Below, in pieces: positions 9,220 to 64,000 of a stretch of DNA of 64,000 bases. A program made the position numbers and the translations under genes. Under the pieces are notes generated by a model. It worked only from the letters and a program-made list of their open reading frames with translations. It searched no databases and was not told the DNA's origin. The DNA lies in the NCBI GenBank assembly GCA_014695345.1, contig JACJOC010000077.1, positions 248,001-312,000 of the forward strand. Direction: 5' to 3'. Each line of letters opens with the position of its first letter. Positions within the stretch are counted from its first letter, which is position 1. The stretch comes from Cyanobacteria bacterium FACHB-471. GTDB lineage: Bacteria > Cyanobacteriota > Cyanobacteriia > Elainellales > Elainellaceae.

Positions 9220-9300
9220 AATTTTTCAGGTAATTTTGTGTACTGAACTCACAAAATTATCCTCTCTTAATCCCAATCCCCAAAAGGAGTCCCATCGATC

Positions 9301-17966: not shown

Positions 17967-18069
17967 TTAAGATTGTGAATATAGCCTTTCCTAGAAGTTG
18001 ACTGAGTTTTTGGGATAACTGCGTCCGTTCCATTCACGCTTTGGCAAAAACCTTTCTCGATCAAGTCCT

Positions 18070-19263: not shown

Positions 19264-19310
19264 GGTACTTTACATTACCGCTAAGACACTTAGGGAATTT
19301 GGCGATCGCA

Positions 19311-20081
19311 CTAAAGACTAAGAAATTCATATAATATTTGTGATTTTTGATGTAGTTCCTCATCAAGAGGAAGAGTAAAAAGTTCCTCAATTAAATTCTT
19401 TAGCTCCAGAACACAACCTGCTATATCAGTAGTGAGTCCATAGAATCTGAACTTAAATGCCTCTCTTACTCTTTCACGAGTTACAGTTAGATCTTTTTCT
19501 GTTAAATCATCTTCACTTTGTGAACCTAACCATCTGTTTGCCTGCTCCTTTACAAAACTGGCAATTTCCGTTTGCTTCTCTAAATCTGAATGAAAGTAGT
19601 ATCCATTCATAATTGAATTGAGTATGTTGAACACTGTTCGTTGTCCTAAATCACAAGTTACATCAGGGTATGGAGAAATATAGTGAAAATATTTATTTCG
19701 GTACTTAATTGCTTTGTTGTCGTAATCTCCTTTATAGAACTTGAACTTGTCATTGATAGAGTTTAAGCGATTCAAAACTTGTTCGTCTTGCCTAGCGCAT
19801 TGCCTTACTCTGCTCACAATCTTTCCAATGTTAATCTCTTCGTCCTGCATGAGAAAAGGACGTAAGATTGTGAGCATTTCTATAAACTCTTGCCGCTCTG
19901 GAACTATGGCTTCTGTCAATTCATCACCTAGAGCCAATGCCATCCCAGATTTGTTCGTTTCGAAGAATTTACAAAAGGAAAGCCTATCAGCTTGATTGAC
20001 AAACATCTGAAGCTTTCTCTTATCCTCCAAATTTAATTGTTCTTGCATTTTGAAAAGATTCAAACTGGAACGATTGGACAA
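19311..20081 (-). CDS. Hypothetical protein, AT-rich, convergent with the PD-(D/E)XK gene
   Basis: A 256-residue mostly helical protein with no family I recognise. It has an N-terminal basic stretch, LNLEDKRKLQMFVNQADRL, and a central YRNKYFHYISPYPDV. The R-x4-6-H pattern of HEPN RNases is hinted at by the RNKYFHY segment, but the context is too weak to claim it. It ends 47 bp from the end of the nuclease-like gene, with low GC and no HIP1 site inside, so both may have arrived together. Confidence 0.6.
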   Translation of the reverse strand: MSNRSSLNLFKMQEQLNLEDKRKLQMFVNQADRLSFCKFFETNKSGMALALGDELTEAIVPERQEFIEMLTILRPFLMQDEEINIGKIVSRVRQCARQDEQVLNRLNSINDKFKFYKGDYDNKAIKYRNKYFHYISPYPDVTCDLGQRTVFNILNSIMNGYYFHSDLEKQTEIASFVKEQANRWLGSQSEDDLTEKDLTVTRERVREAFKFRFYGLTTDIAGCVLELKNLIEELFTLPLDEELHQKSQILYEFLSL

Positions 20082-48820: not shown

Positions 48821-50821
48821 TTAAGCAGCAGTCCTACGAGAATCAAGCATGACTTCTGCCACGCTAAAGTCACGTTTGACCGAAAGAGCATTCAGGTAAC
48901 TGATTGGATCTTCAGCATCAAACTTAGCACCATCAAACAGTTGGATAGGGCCTCGATGATATTTGATATCCACCATTCCTAACTCTCGTGCCGCTGTGCT
49001 AAACGCACCGACCCGGCAAACTCGCTCCAAGATTTCTAACCAGTTGCGAGGAAAAGGAATATCTCCCCAACGAGCCATTTGCGTCATCATCCACAGATGC
49101 TCGGTGCGGCTGGGACGATTAACTCCTTCTCCATAAAACAGGTGGTGAGCGTACTCACGCATGGGCTGATCCAAACTGCAAGTTTGAGTATTAGGATCAC
49201 CCAGTTTGATATAGTCAACCGATGTTCCAACATAAGCCTTGGCAGAGAGGATTTGTTGGATCTCCTGGTGATTCGCTTCATCCGCGCAGTATTGGCAGGC
49301 TTCTAGCAAGGCTTTGATCAGGGCAATGTGAGTGTTTGGATAGGCGATCGCCCAATCTTCTCGCACGCCCAACACCTTTCCAGGATGACCCAGCCAGATC
49401 TCCAAATCCGTTGCCACAGTAAACCCAGTACCTTCGACCGCAGCCCGAAGATTCCAGGGTTCGCCCACACAGTAACCATCAATCGTTCCAGCTTTTAAGT
49501 CAGCAACCATTTGAGCCGGAGGAATGGTGGTGAGTGAAACATCGTGATCGGGGTCAATTCCACTGGTCGCAAGCCAGTAACGCAGCAGCAGATTGTGCAT
49601 TGAAGAAGGATGTACCATTCCCAATGTATGGCGCTGACCAGGTGTTTCGAGAATCAAGCGCTTGAAGTCGGTAGCGCTATATACACCCTGTTCATAGAAC
49701 TTTCTTGCGAGTGTCACGGCGTTACCGTTGCGAGTCATCGTGAGTGCACTCACCATAGGCAATGGCTGGTCTTGATGCCCGCCTGCTGTTAGCCAAACTG
49801 GCATTCCTGCTGGCATTTGAGCTGCATCTAGATATCCACCTGCAATCCCATCGACAACGCCGCGCCAACTTGTTTCACGTACCAGGCTGACCTCATCTAG
49901 ACCATGTTTAGCAAAGAAGCCTTTTTCCTTGGCAACTGCGATCGGGGCACAGGCTGTGAGTGGTACGAAACCCAGTTCAAGATTTACTTTTTCTAGCCCA
50001 TGACGGGCGATCGCCGTTGTCTTCTTAGCCCGCAGTTTCTTGATTCGCTTTTGTTGGTTGAGAAAATAGATTAGCTCAGACCGCAGGCTGTAGTAGCTGG
50101 GATGACTCACTACATCCATGCGCTTGCGGGGACGAGGAATATCTACCTCTAAAATTCCGCCGATCTTAGACGCAGGGCCATTGGTGAGCATGACAATTCG
50201 GTCAGAGAGGAGGACTGCCTCATCCACATCGTGAGTCACCATCACGGCAGTCACTTCGTTCTCCTCACAGATTTTCATCAACTGCTCTTGCAGATTGCCC
50301 CGCGTTAGAGCGTCTAATGCACCAAAGGGTTCGTCTAATAGCAGGAGTTTAGGACGGGTCGCCAAGGCACGGGCGATCGCCACCCGTTGCTTCATACCCC
50401 CGGATAGCTGTCCCGGCGGCTTGTCTGCTGCGTGTTGCAGCCCAACCATTTGAATGTGCTGTTCTACAATTTGCCGACGCTCTTGCTTGGGTAAGGCTGC
50501 CAATACCTCATCGACCGCTAGCGCGATGTTTTCGCGCACCGACATCCAGGGCAACAGTGAGTAGTTTTGAAACACCACCATTCGGTCGGGCCCAGGGCGC
50601 TTTACCAGCTTGCCCTCCAGCGTCACAATACCCTCGGTCGGTAAGTCTAATCCAGCAATCATATTGAGCAATGTAGACTTACCGCAGCCAGAGTGACCAA
50701 TCAGGGAAATGAACTCCCCTTTTTTGATGTGGAGGTCGATTCCTTTGAGGGCAACATAACTGCCCCCGCCGCTCAGGGGAAATACTTTATCGATTTGATC
50801 GACAGCAACAAAGGTAGACAT
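48821..50821 (-). CDS. cmpC: Bicarbonate ABC transporter ATPase-sensor fusion CmpC
   Basis: About 666 residues from ATG 50821 (MSTFVAVDQIDKVFPLSG); the frame is open for 15 codons upstream. Residues about 1-255 are the ATPase: LIGHSGCGKSTLLNMI, QLSGGMKQRVAIARAL, LLLLDEPFGALD. A linker leads to a CmpA-like domain (residues about 280-665: LELGFVPLTACAPIAVAKEK; GYCVGEPWNLRAAVEG). This fused binding domain is the hallmark of NrtC/CmpC and regulates transport in response to solute. It is flanked by family B repeats on both sides. Confidence 0.88.
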   Translation of the reverse strand: MSTFVAVDQIDKVFPLSGGGSYVALKGIDLHIKKGEFISLIGHSGCGKSTLLNMIAGLDLPTEGIVTLEGKLVKRPGPDRMVVFQNYSLLPWMSVRENIALAVDEVLAALPKQERRQIVEQHIQMVGLQHAADKPPGQLSGGMKQRVAIARALATRPKLLLLDEPFGALDALTRGNLQEQLMKICEENEVTAVMVTHDVDEAVLLSDRIVMLTNGPASKIGGILEVDIPRPRKRMDVVSHPSYYSLRSELIYFLNQQKRIKKLRAKKTTAIARHGLEKVNLELGFVPLTACAPIAVAKEKGFFAKHGLDEVSLVRETSWRGVVDGIAGGYLDAAQMPAGMPVWLTAGGHQDQPLPMVSALTMTRNGNAVTLARKFYEQGVYSATDFKRLILETPGQRHTLGMVHPSSMHNLLLRYWLATSGIDPDHDVSLTTIPPAQMVADLKAGTIDGYCVGEPWNLRAAVEGTGFTVATDLEIWLGHPGKVLGVREDWAIAYPNTHIALIKALLEACQYCADEANHQEIQQILSAKAYVGTSVDYIKLGDPNTQTCSLDQPMREYAHHLFYGEGVNRPSRTEHLWMMTQMARWGDIPFPRNWLEILERVCRVGAFSTAARELGMVDIKYHRGPIQLFDGAKFDAEDPISYLNALSVKRDFSVAEVMLDSRRTAA

Positions 50822-50880
50822 AGGTTTAGGAATAAAGGATGAGGAATGAAGGATGAGGGTTAACACAATTCAGAAGAACG

Positions 50881-50950
50881 TAGGGGCGCAGCATTCAGAC
50901 AAAAAATCTTGGTTGATTTCGGAGGCTATCTGCCGGATGCTACGCTCTAG
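50881..50950. repeat. Palindromic repeat, family B copy 3, between cmpB and cmpC
   Basis: TAGGGGCGCAGCATTCAGAC is followed after about 30 bases by TCTGCCGGATGCTACGCTCT. The arms are less perfect than in copy 2. It occupies most of the gap between the cmpB stop codon and cmpC. Confidence 0.75.
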
Positions 50951-50957
50951 CAGGAGT

Positions 50958-51806
50958 TCATCGCTGTTCTTCAGGAAGGATCATCCGTTGGAGATATGCC
51001 ATTGCTCTATCTAAAAGCAAACCTACCGCACCGATATAAAACACCGCTAGAATCACTTCGCTGACGTAGTTGTTCTGGTAAGCGTTCCAGATGAAGAAAC
51101 CAATTCCGATTACACCAGACATCACAATTTCAGCCGCGATAATTGCCAACCAAGCTAGACCAATCGCAATCCGTAGACCTGTGAAGATGTAAGGTAAAGC
51201 AGAAGGAATCAGGACTTTGAAGAAGTATTTGCGTGGAGAGATTTGGAGTACTCTAGCCACATTCTTGTAGTCCTGAGGGATTTGCTGCACACCTACTGTC
51301 GTGTTGATTAGGATGGGCCAAACCGCAGTAATGAAAATTACGAAGATCGCTGCTTGCTGCACATTCTGTAAAGCGATCAAACTGATGGGAACCCATGCTA
51401 GAGGCGCAATCATTCGCAAAAATTGGAAGATCGGATCAACTGCTTTGTTGATGGTTTGATTGGTTCCAACCAAAATTCCTAGACCAATGCCCACAACCGC
51501 TGCCGCTGTGTATCCTTTAGCGACTCTGCCCAGGCTATACATGGTTTGCCAAAACAGTCCCTTATCCAGTCCGCCTAAATCATAAAAGGGGTAGAGCAAT
51601 AACTCCCGTGTTCGCTGTTCAGTCACCAGGCTGAGTGGTCCAGGTAGTCTAGTTAGCCCGGTTGAGGAAAGCAACTGCCAGACGACCAGAAAAACGAGTA
51701 CTCCGATGAGGGGGAGCATGATGTTCTGACCCTGTTTCTTCCAAAAAGTCCGAGCAAAATCTGCAAAATTAGAGCCTGTAGGGCGAGTTCCTGGATTAGC
51801 AACCAT
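50958..51806 (-). CDS. cmpB: Bicarbonate ABC transporter permease CmpB
   Basis: A 282-residue permease with six membrane segments (LPLIGVLVFLVVWQLLSSTG; AAAVVGIGLGILVGTNQTIN; AIFVIFITAVWPILINTTVG). The EAA loop reads YKNVARVLQISPRKYFFKVL. Two copies form the channel. The loop FYDLGGLDKGLFWQT is typical of this group. GGAGAAAAA precedes ATG 51806 on the minus strand. It lies 92 bp downstream of cmpA. Confidence 0.87.
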   Translation of the reverse strand: MVANPGTRPTGSNFADFARTFWKKQGQNIMLPLIGVLVFLVVWQLLSSTGLTRLPGPLSLVTEQRTRELLLYPFYDLGGLDKGLFWQTMYSLGRVAKGYTAAAVVGIGLGILVGTNQTINKAVDPIFQFLRMIAPLAWVPISLIALQNVQQAAIFVIFITAVWPILINTTVGVQQIPQDYKNVARVLQISPRKYFFKVLIPSALPYIFTGLRIAIGLAWLAIIAAEIVMSGVIGIGFFIWNAYQNNYVSEVILAVFYIGAVGLLLDRAMAYLQRMILPEEQR

Positions 51807-51898
51807 TTTTTCTCCTTGAGTTGTTTATGCGAAATAGTCCAAGCTTGAGCGCGAGTAGGAAATAAGTGGGTAGGCGTTATCTCTTGTACCCTTAGTGG

Positions 51899-53257
51899 TT
51901 AAACCCGCTTAATCTGTAAGCTATTGAGGTATGCTTCTGGGTTTTCTGGATCAAACTTTGTACCGTCAAAGAAGGTTTCGACCCCTCTGGAAGTACTGGT
52001 CGGAATGCCAGAGAAACCTGCCTCTTGTGCTGCTTCTCGCCAGAGGTCTTCACGGTTTACACGATCAACGATTTGACGGGCTGTGTCGAAGTCGGCGATT
52101 GCCCCATTATGGAAATTCCAGCGCATCGTTTCGGTCAAGAACCACAAATCATGACTCTTATAGGGATAGGAAACGCTACCGATGTCATCCGACCAATACA
52201 ACGGACTCTTCTTAAAGTCATCAATAGCCGCTTTGCCATCAGCCATCTCGTACTTTCCTTCATATGGAGGAGTTAACACATTGGCTGGTACGTCAAAGAA
52301 GTTACGTCCTGAAACAATCTGAATGAGTTCTGCCCGGTTTGCAGGATCATCACACCATTGCTGAGCCTCCATAATGCCTTTCAGAATGGCTTTTGTTGCT
52401 TTAGGGTTGGCATCTACCCAATCGGCTCGAATCGCCAAATATTCTTCTGGATGGAATGGCCACATCTCAGCGGTCAGAGTTGCCATGAAGCCGATATCAT
52501 CTGACACAATTCGGTAGGGCCAGGGGTCGCCTGTGCTGAAAGCGTCCATTGATCCAGTCCGCATTCCCTGTACCGTTTCAGCCGAAGGTACTGCCAGCAA
52601 ATCAATGTCAGTATCCGGGTCAACTCCACCCGCAGCAAACCAATAGCGAATCCAGAAATCCTGATTCACATTAGGAAAAGTATGTGCCGCCTTAAACTTT
52701 CTGCCTTGAGTGGCTTGAAAGCCTTTAACGTATTCTGCTGCATTTGAAATATCTAGCCCTATTCCTTTACCCGTATGGATTCCAGAGATGGCAATTCCAT
52801 TACCCTGCGTATTGAGTTGCGCCAGAACATACATGGGTAACTTCTGACCATTTGTAATTAGTCCCTCGGAAATCAAATGAGGCATGGGCATTTGCCATTG
52901 CCCACCGTCAATTCCACCATTCCCAGAACCAATGACTACGTTGTCACGTGCAGATGCCCAGTTTGATTGCTTAGATACGGTCACTTCGGTCATTCCGTAC
53001 TTGGCAAAGAAGCCCTTTTGTTGGGCAATCACAATGGGGGCAGATTCCACAATCGGAATGTAGCCCAGTGTAATGCGCGTGGTTTCAGGAGCCTGAGCTG
53101 GGTCGATCGCCGCTACAGGAGTTTGTTGTGCTGTCGCACTATTAATGGTTGCAGAAGGGGGATTTCCCAAACATCCTTTAAGCAATATAGAGCTGGCTGC
53201 ACTTGCTCCAGCAGTGAATAAGAATTTGCGTCGAGAATAGTTAGAAAAATTGGTCAT
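51899..53257 (-). CDS. cmpA: Bicarbonate-binding lipoprotein CmpA
   Basis: A 452-residue binding protein. A Tat motif, [10 protein letters not shown], and lipobox [10 protein letters not shown] open it. The body matches CmpA rather than Nrt[55 protein letters not shown] (NrtA has GEPWNARL there), and [20 protein letters not shown]. The C-terminus [20 protein letters not shown] is typical. CmpA binds bicarbonate, with calcium, at low CO2. It heads the operon. About 0.9 kb of noncoding DNA with three phased motifs lies upstream. Confidence 0.88.
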
Positions 53258-53563
53258 AAAGTTCCTCTACAGCGCCCAAAGCTGCTAAAAACGGCTGAAT
53301 TCTTGATCTGGAAAAACTTAGCTAAAGTATTCCACTATGACGATTTACACCTGGCTCCTGTGTCTGCTTCCCTCAGACAGAGCGCCAGATATGTAATCTA
53401 AACTTCAAAAACTTCAAATCAATGAACAAATTCCCTTAGCAGTTAGCTTATCCTTTTTATGACAGGAAAGGTCAACTCAAAATGAGAATTTGGAAATAAT
53501 TATTAAATGTCGTCGATAAAATCTCTTGATTAAACACAGCAAAATCTCGATATCTTTGAGTAG

Positions 53564-53702
53564 GTTTATAAAGACTATTGATATTTATTGATATTTCCTG
53601 TCCCTTTTCCTGAGCTGCTTTATAAGGACTATGGATATTTACTGATGTATCTTTTCTGTCGGTCTAAGAAAGTTTATAAAGACCATTGATATTTACTGAT
53701 AT
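53564..53702 (-). promoter_or_regulatory. Three 31-bp motifs spaced 54 bp apart upstream of cmpA
   Basis: Copies start at 53564, 53618 and 53672. The first reads GTTTATAAAGACTATTGATA followed by TTTATTGATAT; the others differ by a few bases. Each holds a TTTATAAA-like palindrome and a TGATATTTAcTGATAT direct repeat. Even spacing near five helical turns suggests repeated binding sites for a regulator such as CmpR (inference), 307-445 bp from the cmpA start. Confidence 0.7.
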
Positions 53703-53931
53703 GTTGCTTTCCCCTTCAAGTAGAGGAAGCAATTCTTGTACTGCTAATAGGTCGTTTGTCTGAATTGATTAGATATGTTAATTAACTGCATTAATTGAAT
53801 TTCCCTCAAATAAAGTGAATGCAGCCTTAGTTTTTAGAGATGAACTTTTCCTGTTATATCGGTTGGTCTAGTGGTTGATAGGGGCTAGATGAATGTCTGA
53901 AGTGACTGAAATGCTCAAAATAGACTTGAGT

Positions 53932-53963
53932 GCGATCGCTTTCAATGAGCTGAAAGCGATCGC
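53932..53963. terminator. HIP1-based hairpin
   Basis: GCGATCGCTTTCA and TGAAAGCGATCGC form a perfect 13-bp stem with a 6-base loop. It could end transcription from the cupin gene at 54147, though no T-run follows. Confidence 0.5.
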
Positions 53964-54146
53964 CTCACTAACAACCTGAATGAATCGCGTTAATTTCCTT
54001 AGCTTCTCACTGCAAGTTGCCGAATTGTAAAGAATCGTTCCTGAATGGTTTGCCCATCTTTTCAGGTTTGCATTGCTAACGCTTCAGTCTAAGTTCGATA
54101 GCCATTCTGAATTGATAGATTAATGCGTGCCTCGGTCACAGACTGT

Positions 54147-54455
54147 CTATCTGGAGTAAAACCAAAATTCAATTTCAGAAGTTGCCTGATCAAACCGAGC
54201 CGCGTGGACAGTTTGTGCTGGTACGTGATACCAGTCTCCTACCATGTAGTGTGTTTCCTGACCGTCTACGATTAAAATCAGTTCTCCTTGAGTAATCACA
54301 CCAACGTTGTCAGTATCGTGAGTGTGAGGTGGGATGTTTGTTCCTGCGAGATAGGAGGCAAACAATACGTCGCAGTTTTTAGCTTCTAGCTTAAAGGCAT
54401 CAAACGGTCCCTCAAACTTAGGTAGCGATCGCAGTTGTTGGGGGAAGTGCGTCAT
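54147..54455 (-). CDS. Small cupin protein
   Basis: About 102 residues from ATG 54455, which has GAGGAAAA upstream; the open frame before it adds 38 unlikely residues. A single cupin barrel: SYLAGTNIPPHTHDTDNVGV holds the His ligands, ITQGELILIVDGQETHYMVG the glycine turn, and HVPAQTVHAARFD the last His. It is divergent from an AraC regulator that may control it. It may be a small-molecule sensor or metal-dependent enzyme; the function is unknown. Confidence 0.8.
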   Translation of the reverse strand: MTHFPQQLRSLPKFEGPFDAFKLEAKNCDVLFASYLAGTNIPPHTHDTDNVGVITQGELILIVDGQETHYMVGDWYHVPAQTVHAARFDQATSEIEFWFYSR

Positions 54456-54640
54456 GGTTTTTGTTTTCCTCAAAAGTAAAGTTGGTTTTCTACGAGGGGT
54501 ATGAGAATTAAGATAAATGGATTGGAAAAACAAATCTTTCAAATTCAATATTTCAAAATCTTGCAGCATAGGTGCATGATCGATGACAAGCTCTCTCTAT
54601 TCATCCAGTTTCTAGTACGCCATTACCTCTCTCGCCTCCA

Positions 54641-55459
54641 TTGCAGGGACGGCGATTTGAGAGCGATCGCCTGTTTGTTGAGCTGTGTCCCAGACAGCCT
54701 TATCAGGTTCGCTATCAACCTAACTGGCATGTTTTAGGAATTGCGCTAGAAACCCAGTCTGGCTATCATGCGTTTGCAAGCGATCGGATTAGTCCTTATC
54801 ATGCGCCTGCTAATACCTTTGCTTTTACCCCAGCCCATTGTGAAACGTTTTCCGAATCTAGCCGAGGAGGAGCCTATCTAATCTTCGCTTTGTCAAAGGA
54901 ACTATTTGAAACTTATGTGAGTGATATTGCACCACACCAATCCCCAACGCTACGGCGGCTCTCACATCTCCACAATCAGCACATCACGGCGATTGGACGA
55001 GCAACCCAAACGTTTATCCAAACTAATCCATCAGGTGGTCGTCTTTATTTTGAGGCGCTAGCCGCGCAATTTGCGACCCATGTCATTCTTGCTTTGGTGT
55101 CCAAGCCTGAAAACACACCCCAAGTGAGTAAGCTCTCAGCACGGGCATTTGATCACCTGCTTGAGTTTGTTGAAGCTAATCTGTGTGAAGATTTATCGCT
55201 CAATGCCCTTGCTGAAATCGTAGAAATGCCTCCATCTCAGTTTATGCGATGGTTTAAGGCAAAGATTGGGCAATCTCCTCACGCCTGGATCATTACCTGC
55301 CGCCTCAACCGTGCCAAAACGTTGTTAGCTAAGACAGAACAACCGATCGCCCAGATTGCTTTTGACTGTGGCTTCAGCAGTCAGAGTCACATGACTACAT
55401 TATTCTCCAGATATATCGGTATCACGCCTAAGCAGTATCGGGAGAAGGTTAGTCACTAA
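54641..55459 (+). CDS. AraC-family transcriptional regulator
   Basis: About 272 residues starting at TTG 54641; no ATG is available near the N-terminus. The C-terminal 100 residues are two helix-turn-helix units (DLSLNALAEIVEMPPSQFMR; RAKTLLAKTEQPIAQIAFDC; GFSSQSHMTTLFSRYIGITP). The N-terminal 165 residues are a cupin-like sensor region. It is divergent from the small cupin gene, its likely target. Confidence 0.85.
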   Translation: MQGRRFESDRLFVELCPRQPYQVRYQPNWHVLGIALETQSGYHAFASDRISPYHAPANTFAFTPAHCETFSESSRGGAYLIFALSKELFETYVSDIAPHQSPTLRRLSHLHNQHITAIGRATQTFIQTNPSGGRLYFEALAAQFATHVILALVSKPENTPQVSKLSARAFDHLLEFVEANLCEDLSLNALAEIVEMPPSQFMRWFKAKIGQSPHAWIITCRLNRAKTLLAKTEQPIAQIAFDCGFSSQSHMTTLFSRYIGITPKQYREKVSH

Positions 55460-55482
55460 CAGTTCTAGCTAGCCCTCAGACT

Positions 55483-56340
55483 TTACATGATCAAGCGGCG
55501 ATCGCCATACCATTGACTCAAATCTCGCTCAAGTTGATCAAGGATGGCGATTGCCTTCACTATTGAGTCTGCATCAACGGTTAAAAGAGTAAACGCTGAC
55601 TCAACCCGTTGCTGATAGTTTTGCGGACACAGTGCAAAGCTGTTGGCAACTGCTACTGCACCTTTCTCGTTCAATAAGTACTCTTCGTTGAGGGCAAATA
55701 AGACCTGATTCATACAGGCTACGCTGCGGAAACAACAACCTGCTGCATAAGCAACATCATTACGCGCGATCGCCTTTTGAGCAACGAACAGTGAAAAACT
55801 AATTTCCCAGGCAAACTTATTAATGGTTGCTTGTTTAAGTCCAGTTGGATAAGGAATTGTCTTAGTCTTTAGAGCAGCTAAAATGCCATCTGGATCATGA
55901 AGTGGCAAACCGAATGCAACTTCACCCATATAAATTGAAGATACAAAGCCGTGAGGATGTCCCGGTTGATAATCAATCGTGATTTGCCCAGCATGGCATT
56001 CCTCAATTACACGATCAACTTGAGCCACATCCCGATAGAGAAAATCTACAGAGACACCCTCTATCTTGAGCCAGCCACCCCCATTAATCCATTTGCCCCA
56101 CTCACCAATGGGAGTGATTAGGTTTGTGCGATGATTGTCGTTCAGTTGCGAGGCGAGATGATTAAGAGCGATGAGATCAGGCGGGTTCTCTGGCTGGTAG
56201 TAAATACCTAAATCTACGTCTGACTTTGGTGTATGAGTACCTCTTGCTCTTGAACCACCGAGGGCGATCGCTGCAATTCCCTCAACTGATTGCAGGCGAT
56301 CGACAACACGGTGAATGAATTGAGGCAATTGCTGATTCAT
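55483..56340 (-). CDS. Nucleotidyltransferase-domain protein
   Basis: A 285-residue protein with the Pol-beta-type nucleotidyltransferase motif ALGGSRARGTHTPKSDVDLG (G-S-x-A-R-G then D-x-D, residues about 26-45) and a third Asp near VSVDFLYRDV. The C-terminal helical half contains AYAAGCCFRSVACMNQVLFA, a HEPN-like substrate-binding bundle. Aminoglycoside adenylyltransferases and MNT-type AMPylating antitoxins share this fold. No toxin gene pairs with it. Substrate unknown. Confidence 0.78.
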   Translation of the reverse strand: MNQQLPQFIHRVVDRLQSVEGIAAIALGGSRARGTHTPKSDVDLGIYYQPENPPDLIALNHLASQLNDNHRTNLITPIGEWGKWINGGGWLKIEGVSVDFLYRDVAQVDRVIEECHAGQITIDYQPGHPHGFVSSIYMGEVAFGLPLHDPDGILAALKTKTIPYPTGLKQATINKFAWEISFSLFVAQKAIARNDVAYAAGCCFRSVACMNQVLFALNEEYLLNEKGAVAVANSFALCPQNYQQRVESAFTLLTVDADSIVKAIAILDQLERDLSQWYGDRRLIM

Positions 56341-56433
56341 TTTGACTCCACTTTCATCACCGCTTCAAACCAATATCTTGAAAGTGACAAAAACTATAGG
56401 GATCGCTCTCCTAGTATTTCTGAATCAAAGTTC

Positions 56434-56520
56434 TTAACCAAGGGATGAGGCGATCGCATCCTGTTCATCCGCAAGTAAAGTCTTTAGTTGGGCAATCGCT
56501 CGTTCAAGTAACTCCGTCAT
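56434..56520 (-). pseudogene. Truncated antitoxin gene
   Basis: An ATG complementary to 56518-56520 opens MTELLERAIAQLKTLLADEQ, then DAIASSLG and TAA. This is the N-terminus of a type II antitoxin common in cyanobacteria (MTELLxRAIAQxKTLPxxEQDAIAS...), which normally continues for 40-50 residues to a toxin-binding tail. No toxin gene follows. Confidence 0.55.
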
Positions 56521-56562
56521 AACTCTTCACTGCAGAGGAGTTTTGCTAATCATTGCTTATAG

Positions 56563-56949
56563 CTACCGTGGCAGTCGAGTAAACTTCATCGTGATACCCC
56601 CTGTATTGCCAAGCTTGCCTCCGTTACCAGCAAGCCCAATCTGCCCCTCTGCATTAACCTCAACTGAAAGCGTTACTTCATCTAGACACATTCCGTTATT
56701 TTGTTCTGCTTGAGTAAACAAATCACCAACGACTTGCATTAATCCATTCATCTGTGTCTTAAGAGCTTGGGCATCCAGTGGTATACGTTTCTTTGTGAAA
56801 AGACGGCTAACTCTGTCTGAAATAACACTAGGTGGACAATCATATCCTCCACCTGTATCTTCACCCGAACGTTCGCCATCAATGATAGATGATTCGATAA
56901 ATTCTTCCTTTTCAACAAGTACCCAAATCGTTGAGTTCTCTTCTGTCAT
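56563..56949 (-). CDS. Pepco-like protein next to a caspase
   Basis: About 128 residues from ATG 56949 (MTEENSTIWVLVEKEEF); an in-frame TTG at 57021 would add 24. A short beta start is followed by an acidic Gly-rich loop, then FTKKRIPLDAQALKTQMNGL and MCLDEVTLSVEVNAEGQIGL. It ends in GNGGKLGNTGGITMKFTRLP. This is the pattern of peptidase-co-occurring (Pepco/CU044_2847-type) proteins, found beside trypsin- or caspase-like genes in bacterial conflict systems. It lies downstream of the caspase-FGE gene on the same strand. It may bind or regulate the protease (inference). Confidence 0.6.
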   Translation of the reverse strand: MTEENSTIWVLVEKEEFIESSIIDGERSGEDTGGGYDCPPSVISDRVSRLFTKKRIPLDAQALKTQMNGLMQVVGDLFTQAEQNNGMCLDEVTLSVEVNAEGQIGLAGNGGKLGNTGGITMKFTRLPR

Positions 56950-57138
56950 GACTGATTTATTTAACTCCACAAACACATGACTATATGAAACTAATTGTAG
57001 GGTTAGAACCTCCGTGCTCAAGCAACCTTAAGCTTCTTCTCTTGAATGGAAACCTTCAGAATAAGCATTTCATGTAAATCACTAGAGGACAAGAGCAGGA
57101 AAATCTTTTACGCTCAACTATACAGCGGGACATAGTAT

Positions 57139-58992
57139 TCATGATGTAGAGACAACAACACGAAAGCCGAGAGCATCATCACGGTTATCAAGTTCTGCTT
57201 GGGAACGGTACGCTGAACGACAAGCGGCGGGATCGCTGCTCCACGACCCACCGCGAATGACCCGAGAAGCATGATCACCTGCTTCTATCCATGCTCTTGC
57301 ATCTGTGGGTGCTCCATTATAATTCTCATGCCAGATGTCCTGACACCACTCAAAAACGTTGCCGTGCATATCCGACAAACCAAATATATTGGCGTAGGAA
57401 AACTCATTAACTGCGTTCGTTGACTGTCGGTACTTCCCCACGGGACCACATCCATAGATGTAATCACCATGATAATTTGCTTCACTTGTTCTAATTGTTT
57501 CGCCAAAATGAAAAGGAGTTGTTGTTGTCGCTCGGCAAGCATATTCCCATTCTGCTTCACTCGGTAAACGATATTCACGCCCTGTGTAAAGACTCAAACG
57601 GTCGCAAAACTCCATAGCTTCATGCCAACTTATGCACTCTACGGGATAAGTATTGCCTTTGAATCTAGCAGGATTAGCTTCCAACTCTAAATTCACTTTA
57701 GGTAGAAACGACACCACACTCCATTGAGCTTGGGTAACTGGATATCGTCCCATCGAAAAAGAACTCACCTTTACTTCGTGCTGCGGTCTTTCACGCTTGG
57801 TTCGTCCCTTTTCACCCTGAAATGTCCCCATCATAAAAGAACCACCCGGAATATTGACTAATTCCAACATAATCCCATTACCCAGATCTTCCTTCTGGCA
57901 TACCACTTCAGCTTGACGACGTTCTATTTCTTGACCTTGAGAATTTACCTGCACTATTTCAAATGAAAAGCTTGCTCCTAGTACAGGTTTAGTTGGTAAT
58001 TGTTGCGGTCGCAATTTACTAATACTGCTAGCAGGCAGTACACTTCCAGTTCTGCTTCCTGCATCACAAGGGTGTTTAGCTGTTATTTCAGTTCTGGACC
58101 AAATTCTTTTCAAGCCTTTCCATGCAGATTGATCATCGTGGTATATGGCTAACACCCGCTTCCATAAATGCTCAGCCTGTTCAAGATCTCCCTCTAATTC
58201 TGCCTCTCTCGCATCTTCCCTAAGGGTAGCAATATCAAGTTCTGTTGCTTGTTCTGGTAACAATATCAGATGCAATTTTGTTGCTGGCTCTATAACGATA
58301 TAAGGAGTTTGAGTAGGTTTCCCATACTTCTGATTCAAAGCTGGAACGTTATCCAACAAAAATTTATTCAACCGCTCCACTGTTGCACAGTTCTCTTCTC
58401 CTTGAAGACGCAGTGCAGTCAATAGTACATTGGTGAAAGAACCTTGTTGCAATGCATCTATTTCGTAAGATGACTCATCAGGGCTACACGAAAATACCGT
58501 TATAATGCCTTTTGGTTCCTCTGTACCAACGCCAACTCCATTTCGACGTCCTTGATTCCGGCAAGCATCTATCATTAGCACTACGTTATCTGCACCGCAA
58601 CGCCGTAGCCTCTCCGTAATGTGATAGATAGATATGCCAGTTCCATCCACATCACCTGGATCAGCATCAAACGGCATTAAGTAATCTCGTCCTTGATGGC
58701 GTAAACCATGTCCTGCGAAGAAAAACCAAAAATTGTCCCCTGAGGACAAGAAAGGTTTCTCAAACCGAACTCGTAGGAATCGTCTCAGAGTACCAATGCT
58801 AGGTACTGCTTCAAAGGGTAAGCCATAATCTTGTTTGATAGGAGGTGCATCCTCTGCAAAGAGATAGGCCTCAAATCCTGCTTCTTCTACAAGATAGTCT
58901 CGCATCAACTCAGCATCATGCTTGGCATAGCTAAGATCTTGAAGGTTATTGTACTTATTTATGCCAATGCAAATTGCAAAATTCTTCCCCAT
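57139..58992 (-). CDS. Caspase-like peptidase fused to an FGE-type domain
   Basis: A 617-residue protein. Residues 1-240 are a C14 caspase: FAICIGINKYNNLQDLSYAK, catalytic His95 in FFFAGHGLR, and Cys144 in LMIDACRNQGR. A helical linker at about 255-300 may be a TPR pair. From about residue 372 comes a formylglycine-generating-enzyme-like domain (MLELVNIPGGSFMMGT; YPVECISWHEAMEFCDRLSL; YRLPSEAEWEYACRA; RVIRGGSWSSDPAACRSAYR). Caspase-FGE fusions are typical of cyanobacteria; the FGE part often recognises ligands or peptides rather than sulfatases. No HIP1 site falls in it. Confidence 0.9.
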   Translation of the reverse strand: MGKNFAICIGINKYNNLQDLSYAKHDAELMRDYLVEEAGFEAYLFAEDAPPIKQDYGLPFEAVPSIGTLRRFLRVRFEKPFLSSGDNFWFFFAGHGLRHQGRDYLMPFDADPGDVDGTGISIYHITERLRRCGADNVVLMIDACRNQGRRNGVGVGTEEPKGIITVFSCSPDESSYEIDALQQGSFTNVLLTALRLQGEENCATVERLNKFLLDNVPALNQKYGKPTQTPYIVIEPATKLHLILLPEQATELDIATLREDAREAELEGDLEQAEHLWKRVLAIYHDDQSAWKGLKRIWSRTEITAKHPCDAGSRTGSVLPASSISKLRPQQLPTKPVLGASFSFEIVQVNSQGQEIERRQAEVVCQKEDLGNGIMLELVNIPGGSFMMGTFQGEKGRTKRERPQHEVKVSSFSMGRYPVTQAQWSVVSFLPKVNLELEANPARFKGNTYPVECISWHEAMEFCDRLSLYTGREYRLPSEAEWEYACRATTTTPFHFGETIRTSEANYHGDYIYGCGPVGKYRQSTNAVNEFSYANIFGLSDMHGNVFEWCQDIWHENYNGAPTDARAWIEAGDHASRVIRGGSWSSDPAACRSAYRSQAELDNRDDALGFRVVVSTS

Positions 58993-59284
58993 TTTTATCT
59001 GACAGTCGTCTTCTCAGATTTATGACAATAAAACTTTTTAATCTTCTACGGGTCTAATTTTCCGTCCGCTCGCGGCGTTTGTAATGAGCGGAAGTGCGTC
59101 CCGAAGGGAAAATTCCGTAATGCCTCGTCCGCTGGCGGCGAGGATAGGAATTTTAGCGCTCCGCAACTTTTACTCTATGAAGCGCAACACGCTATCTTAT
59201 AACCTAATTCAAGAATGCGAGGTAGGAGAGAGTCCATTTTTTCCACCTAATTAATGTTGAGATAACATCGCTGATGTTATTAAC
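58993..59284. other. Intergenic DNA with GC-rich fragment
   Basis: No gene. 59061-59165 is GC-rich within AT-rich surroundings and contains partly inverted pieces (GTCCGCTCGCGGCG; GTCCGCTGGCGGCGAGGA). It looks like a decayed intergenic repeat. Confidence 0.4.
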
Positions 59285-61138
59285 TTAAGGGGGTTGACGG
59301 AACGTCGAGTTAATTCTTTGCTCCTTTTCTATTTCTAGCTTATCTAGACGACTATCGATCATCCAAAAAAATATAGAGCCAAGAAGCAAAAAAGCTATTG
59401 CTATCCATGTTATTGTTGCCCACCATTCAGCTTCAGAGTTCTTCTTAGCTTGAGATAGCTCTCTTCTTACAGCACCAATCTCTTCAGAATTCTTCTTGAC
59501 TTGGGTTAGCTCCTCTCTTACAGCATGAATGTCTTTCATTGCACCATTAACAGCTGTAGTTAAAACTCTAGAGTGTTTTCCTGTATTCTCTAAATTCGAT
59601 CCTATCGATTTTATATTGACTGATAGGGCATCAATTTTTCTACTTAAATTCTTAATGCTAGATTGATTTTCTTCTACGCTCTCTTCCAACCAGTTAATTT
59701 CTCTCCTTAAATCTTCAATATTAGATTGACTTTCTTCCGTAATCCTTTCCAGCGAATCTACTCGATTATTCCTGTCTTTAATGGTAAGCCAAATGCTCTC
59801 CTCAAGTAGTTGAATACTTAAGGTGTGTTCAGCTACTAAATGACTTTTTTCTTCTTTTAATCTCTCAAGTTCTGCTTCAACCCCGTTCAACAATTCTTTG
59901 CTGTCATTAACAGTATTCCTGACCTCATGAGACAATCTATCCTTCACTTGCTGAAGCTCTTGCCACAGTATTTTATGTCTCCGTCTAGTATCACTCTCCA
60001 TCTCATTTATGTTTTGTTGTAAAGCAAGTTTCAGCTCTTCTTCTACCTTAGAAATAGATTCCCTTATGGTAGAAGGTAATTTTTCTATTTCTAGTTCAAG
60101 TCGTGCAATGCTCTCTTGGATGCCATCCAACAAATCGATATTATGAGCTGCACTATTGAATCGATGGTAAGCATCCAGAAGAACGCTTAATACAGTATAA
60201 GTTTCTCTCTCTTCTGTAATATTTTTATTTCTTGAGCCAATGTAGTTTTCAACTTTCAACTCAGCTGTATGAATTATTTGATCAGCATTACACTGATTTA
60301 CCTGAAGCTTGTCGAGTTGACATCGGTCAAGATTAGGTCTTTCCTTCTTAGGCTCTGGAGTTAAGTTTAGTTCATGGCTATAGAATGCGCTTAGAATTTT
60401 TATTGCTGTCTGTTTCTCGTACTCAAAAGCATCTGCAACTAATAACTTCTTTCTTAGTTCTCTATATTCATCTATTAACCGTTTAGATACCGTGACCTTT
60501 TTGTTGTCATAAGGGCTAACAAACTCTGGATTTTCTGGATTTTTGCTAATAAATTCTTCAATCCACTCTGCGATATCAGTAACAGATGGAGGAATTTTTT
60601 CAATTGCAATTCTTGCTTTAAGCAGTGAGAGAACATCAATCGCGTCTTGTTCTAATTTTCTTTTCTGATACAATTCCTTGATTAAAGCTAATTCTAATTG
60701 TGTGATAATCTTTTGTTCAACCATTAACTCAGCTAGATCTGGATTGACTCTAACCGAGTGATTTTTCATTAGTGGTAGAAGTAGGGCGACTTCTGCTTGT
60801 ATAGGATTGCCGTCACCAAACTTCTTAATGCAACTTGAACCAATCCGAGCAATGTGTCTGGTGAAGAGGTTTCTAATGTAAGTGACATATTTAACTTCTT
60901 CACCATCACCCTTACCTTGACCGCACAAACAACTTGAATTTGGTTCAATTTCTGCGCCAGTAAAGAACCATTGTTCAGAAATATCCTGAAGATTCTCTTC
61001 AATGACATTCTCTAGATTCTGGACAAGATCTGTTTCAGAAAACTGAACAAGCCGACAGACTAACAAATCAAATTTTTTACGTCTGTATGGCTCATTTCGA
61101 TTGTATAGATCATCCCGATCGTTAATGAGTTTGTGCAT
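59285..61138 (-). CDS. Membrane-anchored coiled-coil protein with N-terminal Cys cluster
   Basis: A 617-residue protein. Residues about 55-110 resemble a small zinc-binding unit: SSCLCGQGKGDGEEVKYVTY, then IRNLFTRHIARIGSSCIKKF, a C-x-C...C arrangement seen in phage and bacterial proteins. Residues about 300-580 are a long coiled coil (LARLELEIEKLPSTIRESIS; RREINWLEESVEENQSSIKN). One membrane helix stands near the C-terminus (WWATITWIAIAFLLLGSIFF). No family name is known to me. AT-rich with no HIP1 site. It lies upstream of the caspase gene on the same strand, so it could be part of the same system. Confidence 0.7.
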   Translation of the reverse strand: MHKLINDRDDLYNRNEPYRRKKFDLLVCRLVQFSETDLVQNLENVIEENLQDISEQWFFTGAEIEPNSSCLCGQGKGDGEEVKYVTYIRNLFTRHIARIGSSCIKKFGDGNPIQAEVALLLPLMKNHSVRVNPDLAELMVEQKIITQLELALIKELYQKRKLEQDAIDVLSLLKARIAIEKIPPSVTDIAEWIEEFISKNPENPEFVSPYDNKKVTVSKRLIDEYRELRKKLLVADAFEYEKQTAIKILSAFYSHELNLTPEPKKERPNLDRCQLDKLQVNQCNADQIIHTAELKVENYIGSRNKNITEERETYTVLSVLLDAYHRFNSAAHNIDLLDGIQESIARLELEIEKLPSTIRESISKVEEELKLALQQNINEMESDTRRRHKILWQELQQVKDRLSHEVRNTVNDSKELLNGVEAELERLKEEKSHLVAEHTLSIQLLEESIWLTIKDRNNRVDSLERITEESQSNIEDLRREINWLEESVEENQSSIKNLSRKIDALSVNIKSIGSNLENTGKHSRVLTTAVNGAMKDIHAVREELTQVKKNSEEIGAVRRELSQAKKNSEAEWWATITWIAIAFLLLGSIFFWMIDSRLDKLEIEKEQRINSTFRQPP

Positions 61139-61299
61139 GGTAGTTCACCACTTAGCATGATTTATGTATAACTCAACGAAATCAAAATCACCAGTGTAAG
61201 TAAACCAGAATTGAGATGAATTTTGATCTTCTGCTACTCATTCAAAAAATGAAAGGTTAATTAATCTTTGTATTGATCCCTTCATTAAAAGCACTACAA

Positions 61300-61331
61300 A
61301 AAAGAGGGTGAGCATTGCCCACCCTCTTTTC
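61300..61331 (-). terminator. Terminator of the transketolase gene
   Basis: AAAAGAGGGTG and CACCCTCTTTT form an 11-bp stem with a 10-base loop 22 bp beyond the stop codon. On the minus strand a run of six T follows. Confidence 0.9.
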
Positions 61332-61352
61332 AACTCACTTCATCAATGTCAA

Positions 61353-63272
61353 TCAACCAACCAATTCCTTCACCTTGCTGATGATGCCATCGGGGTCAAT
61401 GCCTTGGTGGGGGAACTGTTCCCATAGACCACCACAGCCTTCCTTGTGAGTGCCCAGGTGAGCAAACTTAGGAGTCAGCCCACGCTCTAGCAACCAGGAA
61501 CCAAAGCGGCTGCCCAGTCCGGTGCGACGGTTAAAGGCTTCAGTCACTAATACAAATGGGGATGCGCCAACTTTGGCGATCATCTCTTCGTCAACCACGT
61601 TTAATGTGGGTTTGTTGATCAAACCTACGTCAATTCCTTCTTGCTTCAGTTTCTCGACTGCATCTAGGGCGCGATAGAGCGACTCACCAAAGGTGACGAT
61701 GTAGCCTGCTGTGCCTTCGCGCACGACTTCATCTTTGCCGGGGACAAAGGTGTAACCTTCACCATAAAGGTCATTGCCATTTGCATCCAAAATGTTTGGT
61801 GTTTTGGAGCGGGTGGAAAAGATAAACCGCAGACCCGGATCGTTAAACACGGCTTCCACGCAAGCGGTCATCTGAGCGGCATCGGCAGGGAAGTAGAGGC
61901 GTGTTTCGTGACCGTCATCTAACCCGTTGTCGGCAAACAAGTTATTGATGCCAAAGTGACAGGTGTTGTCTGCCATATCGTCTACACCGGAGTGTGAGAA
62001 GTGACAGAGCACGTTGGCGTAGTTGAGCCGCGCCATTGTGATTTCGGAGATGCACATTTCCAGGAAGGCGCTGAAGGTGGCGAAGATGCCCTGTTTGCCT
62101 TGCTCCATGCCAAAGCCAGCCGCAGCAGCGAAGTTGCCTCGCTCCATGATGCCGGAACTGATGAAGATTTCGGGATATGCGTCGTGGATTGCTTTGAGTC
62201 CGCAGGAGCCTTCCAGGTCACTGTCGATGCACAGCACTTTTTCTTTACGCTCTGCTTCGCTCATGCGGCTGAGGACGGAGACAACCGCTTCGCCAAAGAC
62301 GTTGCGGTTTGAGCCTTGCTTGTCGCCAGACCCCAGGTAAGTGTAAGGATTTTTGGGCTTCTCAATGTTCTTGAGGTACTCGGCGGCTTCGGTTTGTCCG
62401 CGAGACTCCAGGTAGGCGATCGCCAACTTCACCGGAATCACATCATGTCCATGGGTGGAACCTTCCAGCCCTTCAATGCCGACGCACATTTTGCGCTTGT
62501 TGATCAGGGCAACCGGGCCATCGGTGGTGACAGCAGCACACATGCGGCGATACAGGTCGTCAATGTCTTCGGGGTCGCCTTCATTTACGTCTAAGCCATG
62601 AGCTTCTAGCACTCTGCCAACGCTAAAGCCCTTCAAATATTCAGAAGGATGTCCGGCAATGGTGACATCGTTATCGTCAATCAGCAGCTTCACGTTCAGA
62701 CCTTGGGCGACTGCGAGACGGGCGGCTTCTGCGTCGTTGCCTTCCTGCTGGGAACCGTCAGAGCCAAGGCAGAAAACGATTTTACCAGGATTGGCGATCG
62801 CCACCCCATTCACATAGGGCCAAACATGTCCTAGCCGTCCACCGCTAAATTTGACACCGGGAGTCAACCCCAGCTCTGGGTGTCCAGGAAGTTCTGAATG
62901 AGCGGCACGATATTGAGTTAGCCGCTCCACGTCCAGTTCCCCATGAATGACTGCCATCAAATATTGAGTGGCGACGCGGTGTCCTGCCTCATCAAAGAAA
63001 ACTGGCACAAACTTGTCTGGCGCTCCCCGGAAGAATGCATCCAAAATCACCACTTCCGGCACCGTGTCGTAAGGTCCGCCTGTGTGTCCGCCTACGCCTC
63101 TTGCTGCTCCAGTTGCGGTGAAGAATACGATCGCATCCCGGCAAAGCTCAATATTTGCTCTCAATGCATCCCGCTGTTCGCTGGTCAGGGTTGGATTAGT
63201 CGGGTCAAGGGCGATGGGTTGGTAGGCATCCAAATCAATCGGGAAGCTGGTTCTGGCTTTAGCAATAGTCAT
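61353..63272 (-). CDS. Divergent transketolase family protein
   Basis: A 639-residue thiamine-diphosphate enzyme. TAARGVGGHTGGP stands where classical transketolase has the SGHPG loop. The cofactor motif is LGSDGSQQEGNDAEAARLAV...IDDNDVT. The pyrimidine domain begins near residue 310 (GEAVVSVLSRMSEAERKEKV; GIMERGNFAAAAGFGMEQGK), and the C-terminal domain near 515. The N-terminus differs strongly from the canonical cyanobacterial Tkt, so it may be a paralogue with another ketose substrate. Transketolases move two-carbon units in the Calvin and pentose phosphate pathways. It is monocistronic with a good terminator. Confidence 0.82.
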   Translation of the reverse strand: MTIAKARTSFPIDLDAYQPIALDPTNPTLTSEQRDALRANIELCRDAIVFFTATGAARGVGGHTGGPYDTVPEVVILDAFFRGAPDKFVPVFFDEAGHRVATQYLMAVIHGELDVERLTQYRAAHSELPGHPELGLTPGVKFSGGRLGHVWPYVNGVAIANPGKIVFCLGSDGSQQEGNDAEAARLAVAQGLNVKLLIDDNDVTIAGHPSEYLKGFSVGRVLEAHGLDVNEGDPEDIDDLYRRMCAAVTTDGPVALINKRKMCVGIEGLEGSTHGHDVIPVKLAIAYLESRGQTEAAEYLKNIEKPKNPYTYLGSGDKQGSNRNVFGEAVVSVLSRMSEAERKEKVLCIDSDLEGSCGLKAIHDAYPEIFISSGIMERGNFAAAAGFGMEQGKQGIFATFSAFLEMCISEITMARLNYANVLCHFSHSGVDDMADNTCHFGINNLFADNGLDDGHETRLYFPADAAQMTACVEAVFNDPGLRFIFSTRSKTPNILDANGNDLYGEGYTFVPGKDEVVREGTAGYIVTFGESLYRALDAVEKLKQEGIDVGLINKPTLNVVDEEMIAKVGASPFVLVTEAFNRRTGLGSRFGSWLLERGLTPKFAHLGTHKEGCGGLWEQFPHQGIDPDGIISKVKELVG

Positions 63273-64000
63273 GGCTGATTTTCTTTAAGTGGGCAGTTAT
63301 TTAAGGCGGACACTTCCAGAGACAAAACCATCATCACAGACGGTTTTTGGCGAACAGGAGAATTATTAGAGTAGAACTGCTGGCGATCGCTACGCCGCAT
63401 TACACACAGGATAGATCTCAATGGACGGAGAACTACAGAGAATGCCGTCTCGCTAATGTCCAATCTCCTGATCTTATAGCGCTCTGCGTGGGTCTTTGAG
63501 GTTTGGTTCCTGAGAAATTTTGCCTAGTAAGACACAAATTTTCAAGAAGCAAAATAACTCCTGTGCTCCTCAAAAGGCTTAGAAACGCCTGAGTCAGAGC
63601 AGAAATTTCTGTAAACAGCTATACCTGAGTATAAATGCTCATTACTCTTACGATCAAGATTGTTAATGAAAAGTAAAGTTTGGTAAATAATCTTTAATCA
63701 TCGCCTCAAGCGCTTCTCAAAAAATCCGTCTCAAAAAATCCGTAGTTTGCCACCTTGACGGAGAGTCACTATCCCAGATATGCTCTCACGTTAAGGTTGT
63801 CATTTTTACTCAAAAGCAGCCCTACTACGCCCAAAAATCTAGCGCCGCCCAAGGTTGCTGCGAACAGCCTTGAGCGACTGACCCCCAAGCTGTGTGTACC
63901 AGTCTGGCGGCTAACGGTGAATTTTAACACTCCCTTAGCCACCCCGACTTGTCATGTCAAAACGTTGCTGATCCATCAGGACATGAAAGTGAAAATAAAC
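63273..64000. other. Noncoding right end of the window
   Basis: About 730 bases upstream of the transketolase gene with no credible gene on either strand. A possible structured stretch is at 63837-63915. The rest is AT-rich and may hold promoters, including that of a gene beyond the edge. Confidence 0.5.
63837..63915. ncRNA. Possible structured RNA element
   Basis: GCCGCC at 63844 pairs with GGCGGC at 63906. Inside, AAGGTTG pairs with CAGCCTT, and GACTG with CAGTC. The three stems fit a compact fold of about 75 nt. The strand is undetermined and it matches no RNA family I know. Confidence 0.25.

Follow-up and report, generated by a model that had tools for sequence, protein, structure and literature searches.

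A Caspase-FGE Gene Paired with Pepco in a Variable Stretch of a Cyanobacterial Genome: A Candidate Ligand-Reading Orthocaspase

Introduction

Lists of caspase-like proteases that carry an FGE-sulfatase (FGE) domain go back to 2012, and there is no consensus on what the FGE domain does. In the portions of the published texts compared here, and this applies to every paper cited below, FGE was counted in 33 of 671 putative bacterial metacaspases in 2012 and in 39 cyanobacterial orthocaspases in 2021 (PMC3501461, PMC8283722). Orthocaspase paralogues of the variable proteins of diversity-generating retroelements (DGRs) are described in PMC7517822, and the toxicity of the orthocaspase MaOC1 is described as acting by way of an antitoxin (PMC7935541). 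Orthocaspases cleave after basic residues (PMC6426788), the FGE domain is assigned a C-type-lectin fold (PMC8195603), and CLec/FGE domains are presented as antigen sensors (PMC10907252). Here, we address a caspase-FGE gene that adjoins a gene of the small protein family Pepco in a 64-kb stretch of the genome of Cyanobacteria bacterium FACHB-471. This whole stretch is referred to as the window, and all positions are its own.

The first-pass annotation of this DNA had joined three genes, for Pepco, the caspase-FGE protein and a coiled-coil protein, into one acquired suicide or defence module. The three genes do lie side by side on the minus strand, at 56563-57021, 57139-58992 and 59285-61138. 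The reading towards which we lean, at little better than even odds, is a narrower one, namely a Pepco-regulated orthocaspase with a ligand-reading FGE domain, the pair standing beside an orphan gene in a variable stretch downstream of a transketolase gene. Comparisons drew upon 36 genomes of the order (35 and its own) and 386 genomes of the phylum (385 and its own), the latter representing 143 genera. Genomes and loci are designated by G and L numbers where they have to be told apart.

The Caspase-FGE Protein and Its Pepco Partner

The caspase-FGE gene (57139..58992, minus strand) encodes a protein of 617 amino acids (aa), in which Peptidase_C14 occupies residues 4-233 and is followed by a linker and an FGE-sulfatase/C-type-lectin-fold domain at residues 377-613. 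The domains named in the first-pass annotation all score above their Pfam cut-offs: Peptidase_C14 with 66.9 bits (cut-off 21.4), FGE-sulfatase (PF03781) with 166.9 bits (cut-off 23.3), and Pepco (PF24393) with 96.7 bits (cut-off 27; E=1.5e-27) over profile positions 1-112 of 112. The cysteine it had taken as catalytic, C144, forms with H95 a dyad of the caspase type, invariant across the 7 and 10 aligned sequences of two alignments, and six homologues of the whole protein are 53-56% identical. The caspase domain is accordingly classed, by its residues, as an orthocaspase with a predicted intact His-Cys dyad. Among proteins of solved structure, the FGE domain has PvdO as its best relative, and its matches include Treponema denticola variable protein 1; most likely, the domain would sense a ligand instead of working as a formylglycine enzyme.

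The Pepco gene (56563..56949, minus strand) encodes 128 aa. Its mechanical open reading frame (ORF), 56563-57021, begins at TTG 57021; the start used here, ATG 56949, agrees with the starts of the homologues. We take the family name to mean 'peptidase co-occurring'. A structure model of the protein (pLDDT 61) had no PDB match at E<=0.001 and was not used. The family is patchy, with PF24393 in 23/36 genomes of the order and 46/386 of the phylum, the latter in 30 of the 143 genera.

Surveyed from the Pepco side, 20 of the 31 Pepco matches in the order were fetched with their neighbourhoods, the window being among the 11 left and one locus (G018:C263) being fetched later. A caspase adjoins Pepco at 15 of these 20 loci, with FGE fused to it in 8 of the 15. 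Twelve of the 15 pairs have Pepco first, two have the caspase first like the window (L048, L051), and at L054 Pepco is flanked by two caspase-FGE genes. In the phylum, 28 of 60 Pepco matches were examined, and at 25 of them a caspase lies within 1.5 kb on the same strand with Pepco first; at L239 a further caspase lies on the opposite strand, and the match of L217 is weak. Surveyed from the other side, the best 80 of 558 caspase-FGE relatives include 12 loci with a fused ORF. Pepco is present at five of the 12, all cyanobacterial, one of them being the same contig as L055 (L112 repeats L055); four of the 12 are proteobacterial, none with Pepco, and one more starts at a contig edge. Given these counts from both sides, it is the caspase domain with which Pepco goes, and the partnership proposed in the first-pass annotation is well founded. 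The C-terminal slot of the caspase varies, since three of eight caspases scanned carry FGE, three carry GUN4 and two carry neither; the caspase of L042 has a C-terminal hydrophobic segment. In the window, the two genes share a strand in the reversed order, caspase then Pepco. We judge it somewhat probable that the two-gene pair of caspase-FGE and Pepco is the functional unit.

As a separate observation, Pepco stands beside an FHA-transglycosylase-transpeptidase gene in two species of one genus (L047:4265-7399 and L056:5305-8160), where no caspase was found.

The Variable FGE Patch and a DGR in a Relative

The genome G004 contains a cassette (L055:2405-6570) with the gene order Pepco, caspase-FGE, Avd, reverse transcriptase (RT) and template, and its caspase-FGE protein is 55% identical to that of the window. 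The Avd protein scores above the cut-offs of the bAvd and DivGenRetAVD models. Over 126 positions, target and template show 20 mismatches, 19 of which fall at template adenines. By these marks, the cassette reads as a standard DGR whose live target is a Pepco-paired caspase-FGE gene.

The position of the G004 variable region corresponds, in the window, to a C-terminal FGE segment, residues 577-617 (57142..57264, minus strand). Within it, we defined a patch of 16 codons, those with adenine in the first two positions in the G004 template. At these codons, the identity of the window protein to 13 relatives is 0-25%, compared with 49-63% in the rest of the FGE domain. Among 11 hand-picked homologues, the entropy is 2.65 bits in the 16 columns, 0.67 in the other 25 columns of the segment and 0.93 in the rest of FGE; with 18 of 20 fused proteins, it is 2.95 against 1.04 and 1.35 bits. 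The set of 11 was drawn from the 21 sequences of a tree (L112 being omitted there as a duplicate of L055), leaving out L057, L059, L101, L103, L108, L119, L122, L143, L156 and L176. Such saturated columns amid a rest that is 60-70% identical would fit DGR-type diversification or strong selection, as a trait of this FGE class rather than the caspase pair. The sensor-like character that the first-pass annotation gave to the FGE domain is supported by its very variable end and by the DGR target in a relative. The live DGR upon a Pepco-paired caspase-FGE gene, together with random-level identity at the same residues among its relatives, argues that FGE is a recognition domain.

Two further observations concern FGE proteins elsewhere. 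Caspase-less FGE ORFs of several phyla (L120-L180) are near random-level identity at the same 16 columns; the patch is not always variable, since the control pair L120/L121 is 88% identical there. In two genomes of the same genus as the window's (G021, G022), the loci L197, L198 and L199 contain DGRs whose targets are FGE, together with A-biased template copies.

The Genomic Site and the HIP1-Free Stretch

The sister species G021 carries a transketolase 96% identical in protein to that of the window (gene at 61353-63272). Downstream of it, the place of the three window genes is taken by about 2.5 kb that encodes a TIGR04255 protein and holds unknown ORFs, and this is followed by a sequence 82% like window 56398-56499. 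On the transketolase side, the two genomes agree at 88.6% over 2392 bases, and the border of the variable site drawn there from the alignment is regarded as firm. The far border, placed at 56398-56499, is suggestive because the antitoxin-like sequence there has several relatives in G021. The contig of a second same-genus genome stops 358 bases beyond its match to the transketolase region. In eight further genomes of the order, the fetched stretch is similar to the window in the transketolase only, and the transketolase DNA had no match among the plasmids searched.

The motif HIP1 (GCGATCGC) occurs 96 times in the window, against 0.88 expected from shuffles. The first-pass annotation, by eye, had seen none between about 56450 and 62416; this is exact, and the gap of 5966 bp with 0 GCGATCGC is the longest of the 95 gaps between copies (P = 0.0093 with 96 sites placed at random), the runner-up being 3559 bp. 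The gene block itself (56563-61138, 4576 bp) contains no HIP1, the minimum being 3 and the median 7 in 103 overlapping windows of the same length before position 56000. Sites with one mismatch number 2 in the block (0.44 per kb) and 53 elsewhere (0.89 per kb). Gap and block do not coincide because about 1.06 kb of the gap falls inside the conserved transketolase gene; the gap marks the block without being its border. At 15 Pepco-caspase loci, the pairs hold 21 HIP1 in 34.3 kb and the flanks 183 in 146.5 kb. The second-longest gap of the window (50373-53932) lies apart and contains the low-GC kilobase 53001-54000.

The three genes had also been called AT-rich. This is strongly so for the coiled-coil gene (GC fraction 0.365) and less marked for the caspase gene (0.44) and the Pepco gene (0.42), the whole window being at 0.477. 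A value as low as that of the caspase gene is found in 15% of windows of the same size. The AT-richness of the coiled-coil gene is not unique either, since 18001-20000 nearly equals it (per-kb GC 0.389 and 0.372). Base composition aside, the other genes at the sister-species site and the lack of HIP1 in the block support a variable acquisition of the block, as the first-pass annotation had supposed in calling it horizontally acquired.

At the far edge of the block lies a 28-codon ORF (56434..56520, minus strand), a putative antitoxin-like remnant, this label having no family match behind it; the ORF falls within the range of the first-pass annotation, which starts at 56434, contains the HIP1 site 56450 and has related copies in the sister species. 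A hairpin-forming spacer between the coiled-coil and caspase genes (59040..59215, minus strand) is single-copy in the genome and folds unremarkably (z -1.35), and Rfam had no match over window 52000-64000. Adjoining the block, 55483-56340 (minus strand) encodes a nucleotidyltransferase-like protein (PF01909) with a weak MntA-type match (31 bits, cut-off 60). At the sister site, the alternative cassette (L091:3030-5676) is flanked by similar direct repeats of about 75 nucleotides, near HIP1 sites, as judged by eye.

Proposed Mechanism and Alternative Readings

In the mechanism that we propose, an invader-derived or stress ligand would bind the variable face of the FGE domain. The restraint by Pepco would then be lifted, or the caspase would oligomerise, and the caspase would cleave host proteins after basic residues, so that growth stops or the cell dies. 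Ligand sensing by FGE, regulation by Pepco, cell death, and any DGR past of the window copy are points that we infer. Because of its constancy beside the caspase domain, Pepco would act as an inhibitor or adaptor, most likely restraining the protease or coupling it to its target. A wider and more tentative view, which we would sooner doubt than adopt, is that Pepco and caspase form a constant cyanobacterial core for cell death, whose sensor slot can be filled by FGE, GUN4 or a membrane segment. A DGR-fed FGE would make it, in some genomes, a hypermutable immune receptor of the protease type, and the window copy would have been frozen by DGR loss or by a transfer without the DGR.

Several points weigh against this account of the window pair. 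Pepco stands without a visible caspase at 5/20 loci of the order and 3/28 of the phylum, and at G018:C263 it is accompanied by RT and FGE pieces with no caspase within 5.4 kb. The order caspase then Pepco is shared by only L048 and L051 of the 15 order loci, and with this reversed order and a gap of 117-189 bp, co-transcription would be no more than possible. The tree of 21 sequences leaves the placement of the window gene unsettled. HIP1 is denser in the pair than in its flanks at 3 of the 15 loci (L052, L055, L058). The entropy pattern of the patch recurs in 55 FGE proteins without caspase (3.38 against 1.38 and 1.99 bits), and at matched similarity up to 0.7, pairs of proteins share about 10% identity in the 16 columns, both with and without caspase (72 controls). 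Because caspase-less FGE proteins are equally variable, the variability neither marks the caspase group nor proves a DGR history, and patch entropy was discarded as proof of a DGR past of the window gene. These controls are themselves not proven DGR-free, since likeness to the window FGE was the basis of their retrieval and some have a second copy in the same locus. With the genome in 118 contigs, an assembly gap could also hide a template or RT. Finally, a death or defence role of the pair is what we infer from sequence, and orthocaspases may have homeostatic roles (PMC7517822).

This last point leads to the strongest alternative, in which the protein is a housekeeping or stress-proteolysis orthocaspase, FGE is its substrate-docking domain, and no invader is involved. 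The broader part of orthocaspases in homeostasis and differentiation (PMC7517822) speaks for it. The DGR diversification in G004, the patchy distribution of Pepco (46/386 genomes) and the variable site suit conflict systems better, and we consider it rather unlikely.

The caspase-FGE gene might also still be a remote DGR target, its template and RT lying in an unassembled gap. Both same-genus genomes contain DGR-type RTs, PMC7517822 describes remote variable proteins, and the patch is at random-level identity to its relatives. Against this, the window FGE segment finds only itself in its own genome at E<=0.01, leaving no template copy, and no DGR-type RT was found there at E<=1e-20, a threshold at which 9 of the 36 order genomes are positive, both same-genus ones included. 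The five RVT_1 matches in the genome are of group II intron type, as judged by eye, and the assembly is 99.87% complete. When 10 templates of the order were compared with the window segment, none matched it in the way that the G004 template matches its own; mismatches are commoner at A (for example, 17/28 vs 23/76 with G011), with no cognate fit. A remote target is improbable. If the window copy was ever a DGR target, which is likely, it would have arrived without its DGR or lost it.

The module of three genes would add to the caspase trigger and Pepco adaptor a membrane effector or anchor, the coiled-coil protein. This orphan (59285..61138, minus strand; 617 aa) has an unknown N-terminal half, a long coiled coil and a candidate transmembrane segment at about residues 576-594, where hydrophobicity peaks. 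At residues 70-103 (window 60830-60931, minus strand), it carries a CxCG...GSSC motif that resembles a small metal-binding site and is absent from every ORF longer than 100 aa in a set of 4457 ORFs from 100 loci. What favours the trio is that its genes are contiguous, on the same strand, and inside one HIP1-free block missing from the sister site. The orphan protein, in turn, matches no curated family; weak PADLOC, NCBIfam and PHROG matches fall mostly in the coiled coil, three PHROG ones reaching the N-terminal half (best E 0.0034). At E<=1e-5 it has no match in the 35 other genomes of the order, and in the 385 others of the phylum it has four weak matches of 21-31% identity, all within the coiled coil (scoring covered three candidates per genome among the matches shown, and remote relatives may have escaped). 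In those 385 genomes, nothing matches the first 130 residues of the protein, and searches of genome contigs, plasmids, phages and viral contigs returned nothing. The three sets of Pepco or FGE loci searched (20, 80 and 28) contain no homologue. The spacer to the caspase gene measures 292 bp, and the GC fractions differ (0.365 vs 0.44). The structure model (pLDDT 47) was not used.

To look for a generic coiled-coil neighbour, 20 pair loci (19 distinct, as L112 repeats L055) were passed through a crude composition filter. It flagged a 678-aa gene at L048, on the same strand, more than 3 kb off and with hydrophobicity 1.54. At L059, an unrelated coiled-coil-rich gene of 450 aa (8236-9588) with a hydrophobic segment adjoins the Pepco/caspase-FGE pair on the opposite strand, with a 909-aa gene farther on; this neighbour lends weak support to a trio. 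The remaining loci showed no coiled-coil neighbour under this filter. The trio fails because, across the 385 other phylum genomes, the coiled-coil protein finds nothing but coiled-coil noise, and it stands near none of the other pairs examined. The first-pass annotation had itself named a lack of co-occurrence of the three genes in other genomes as refuting its reading; no such co-occurrence turned up, and the single module was rejected on this lack across genome, plasmid, phage, viral and locus searches, leaving it highly improbable. We judge the orphan gene to be a probable neighbour of the pair and not part of it, and the case is a warning that contiguous, composition-odd genes need not form one module.

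That FGE is a modifying enzyme, a formylglycine generator working with the protease, has hardly any likelihood in view of PvdO as best solved relative, Treponema denticola variable protein 1 among the matches, and a Ser inside the variable patch at the presumed place of the first copper-binding cysteine, the second being C591 (these places were assigned with no residue-to-residue alignment to human FGE). The strong PF03781 match would suit such an enzyme, on which PMC3501461 speculates.

Comparison with Known Systems

The reading of a Pepco-regulated orthocaspase can be set beside five described groups of systems. The orthocaspases and metacaspases with FGE-sulfatase (PMC3501461, PMC8283722) have the same domain order as the window protein; unlike the window pair, they come with no mention of Pepco or of a variable segment in the text compared. 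The DGR variable proteins with an orthocaspase N-terminus (PMC7517822) combine a caspase, a CLec-type domain and a C-terminal variable region, as in the window, whereas the window genome has no matching template or DGR RT found, and Pepco is unnamed in the portion of that paper compared. The DGR-diversified conflict systems of multicellular bacteria (PMC10907252) share an FGE/CLec sensor, a peptidase effector and nearby small adaptor genes (Trypco there). They differ in that caspase and sensor are fused in the window protein and that eight neighbour proteins scanned (51899-63272) had no MoxR, vWA, STAND or VMAP match.

The EACC1-caspase system (PMC7159879), with a constant small 5' gene and a caspase whose C-terminal domain changes, is built like the Pepco pairs. 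Pepco takes the place of EACC1 here, and the window caspase falls short of the EACC1-associated model (53.2 bits, cut-off 140). MaOC1, an orthocaspase beside a toxin-antitoxin module (PMC7935541), likewise lies near antitoxin-like sequence, while the window has just the 28-codon remnant, no toxin identified, and another caspase architecture. A search of the open-licence PMC literature found no paper linking Pepco by name to caspases in this way; an unseen description is likely, as the family has a Pfam name.

Caspase-FGE fusions (PMC3501461, PMC8283722) and orthocaspase targets of DGRs (PMC7517822) are thus already published. The window adds a member of the pair whose genes stand in the reverse order and in whose genome no DGR was found. 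The pair offers a simple test system, with one protease, one small partner and one variable face. What is new here is G004, in which a live DGR acts on a Pepco-paired caspase-FGE gene.

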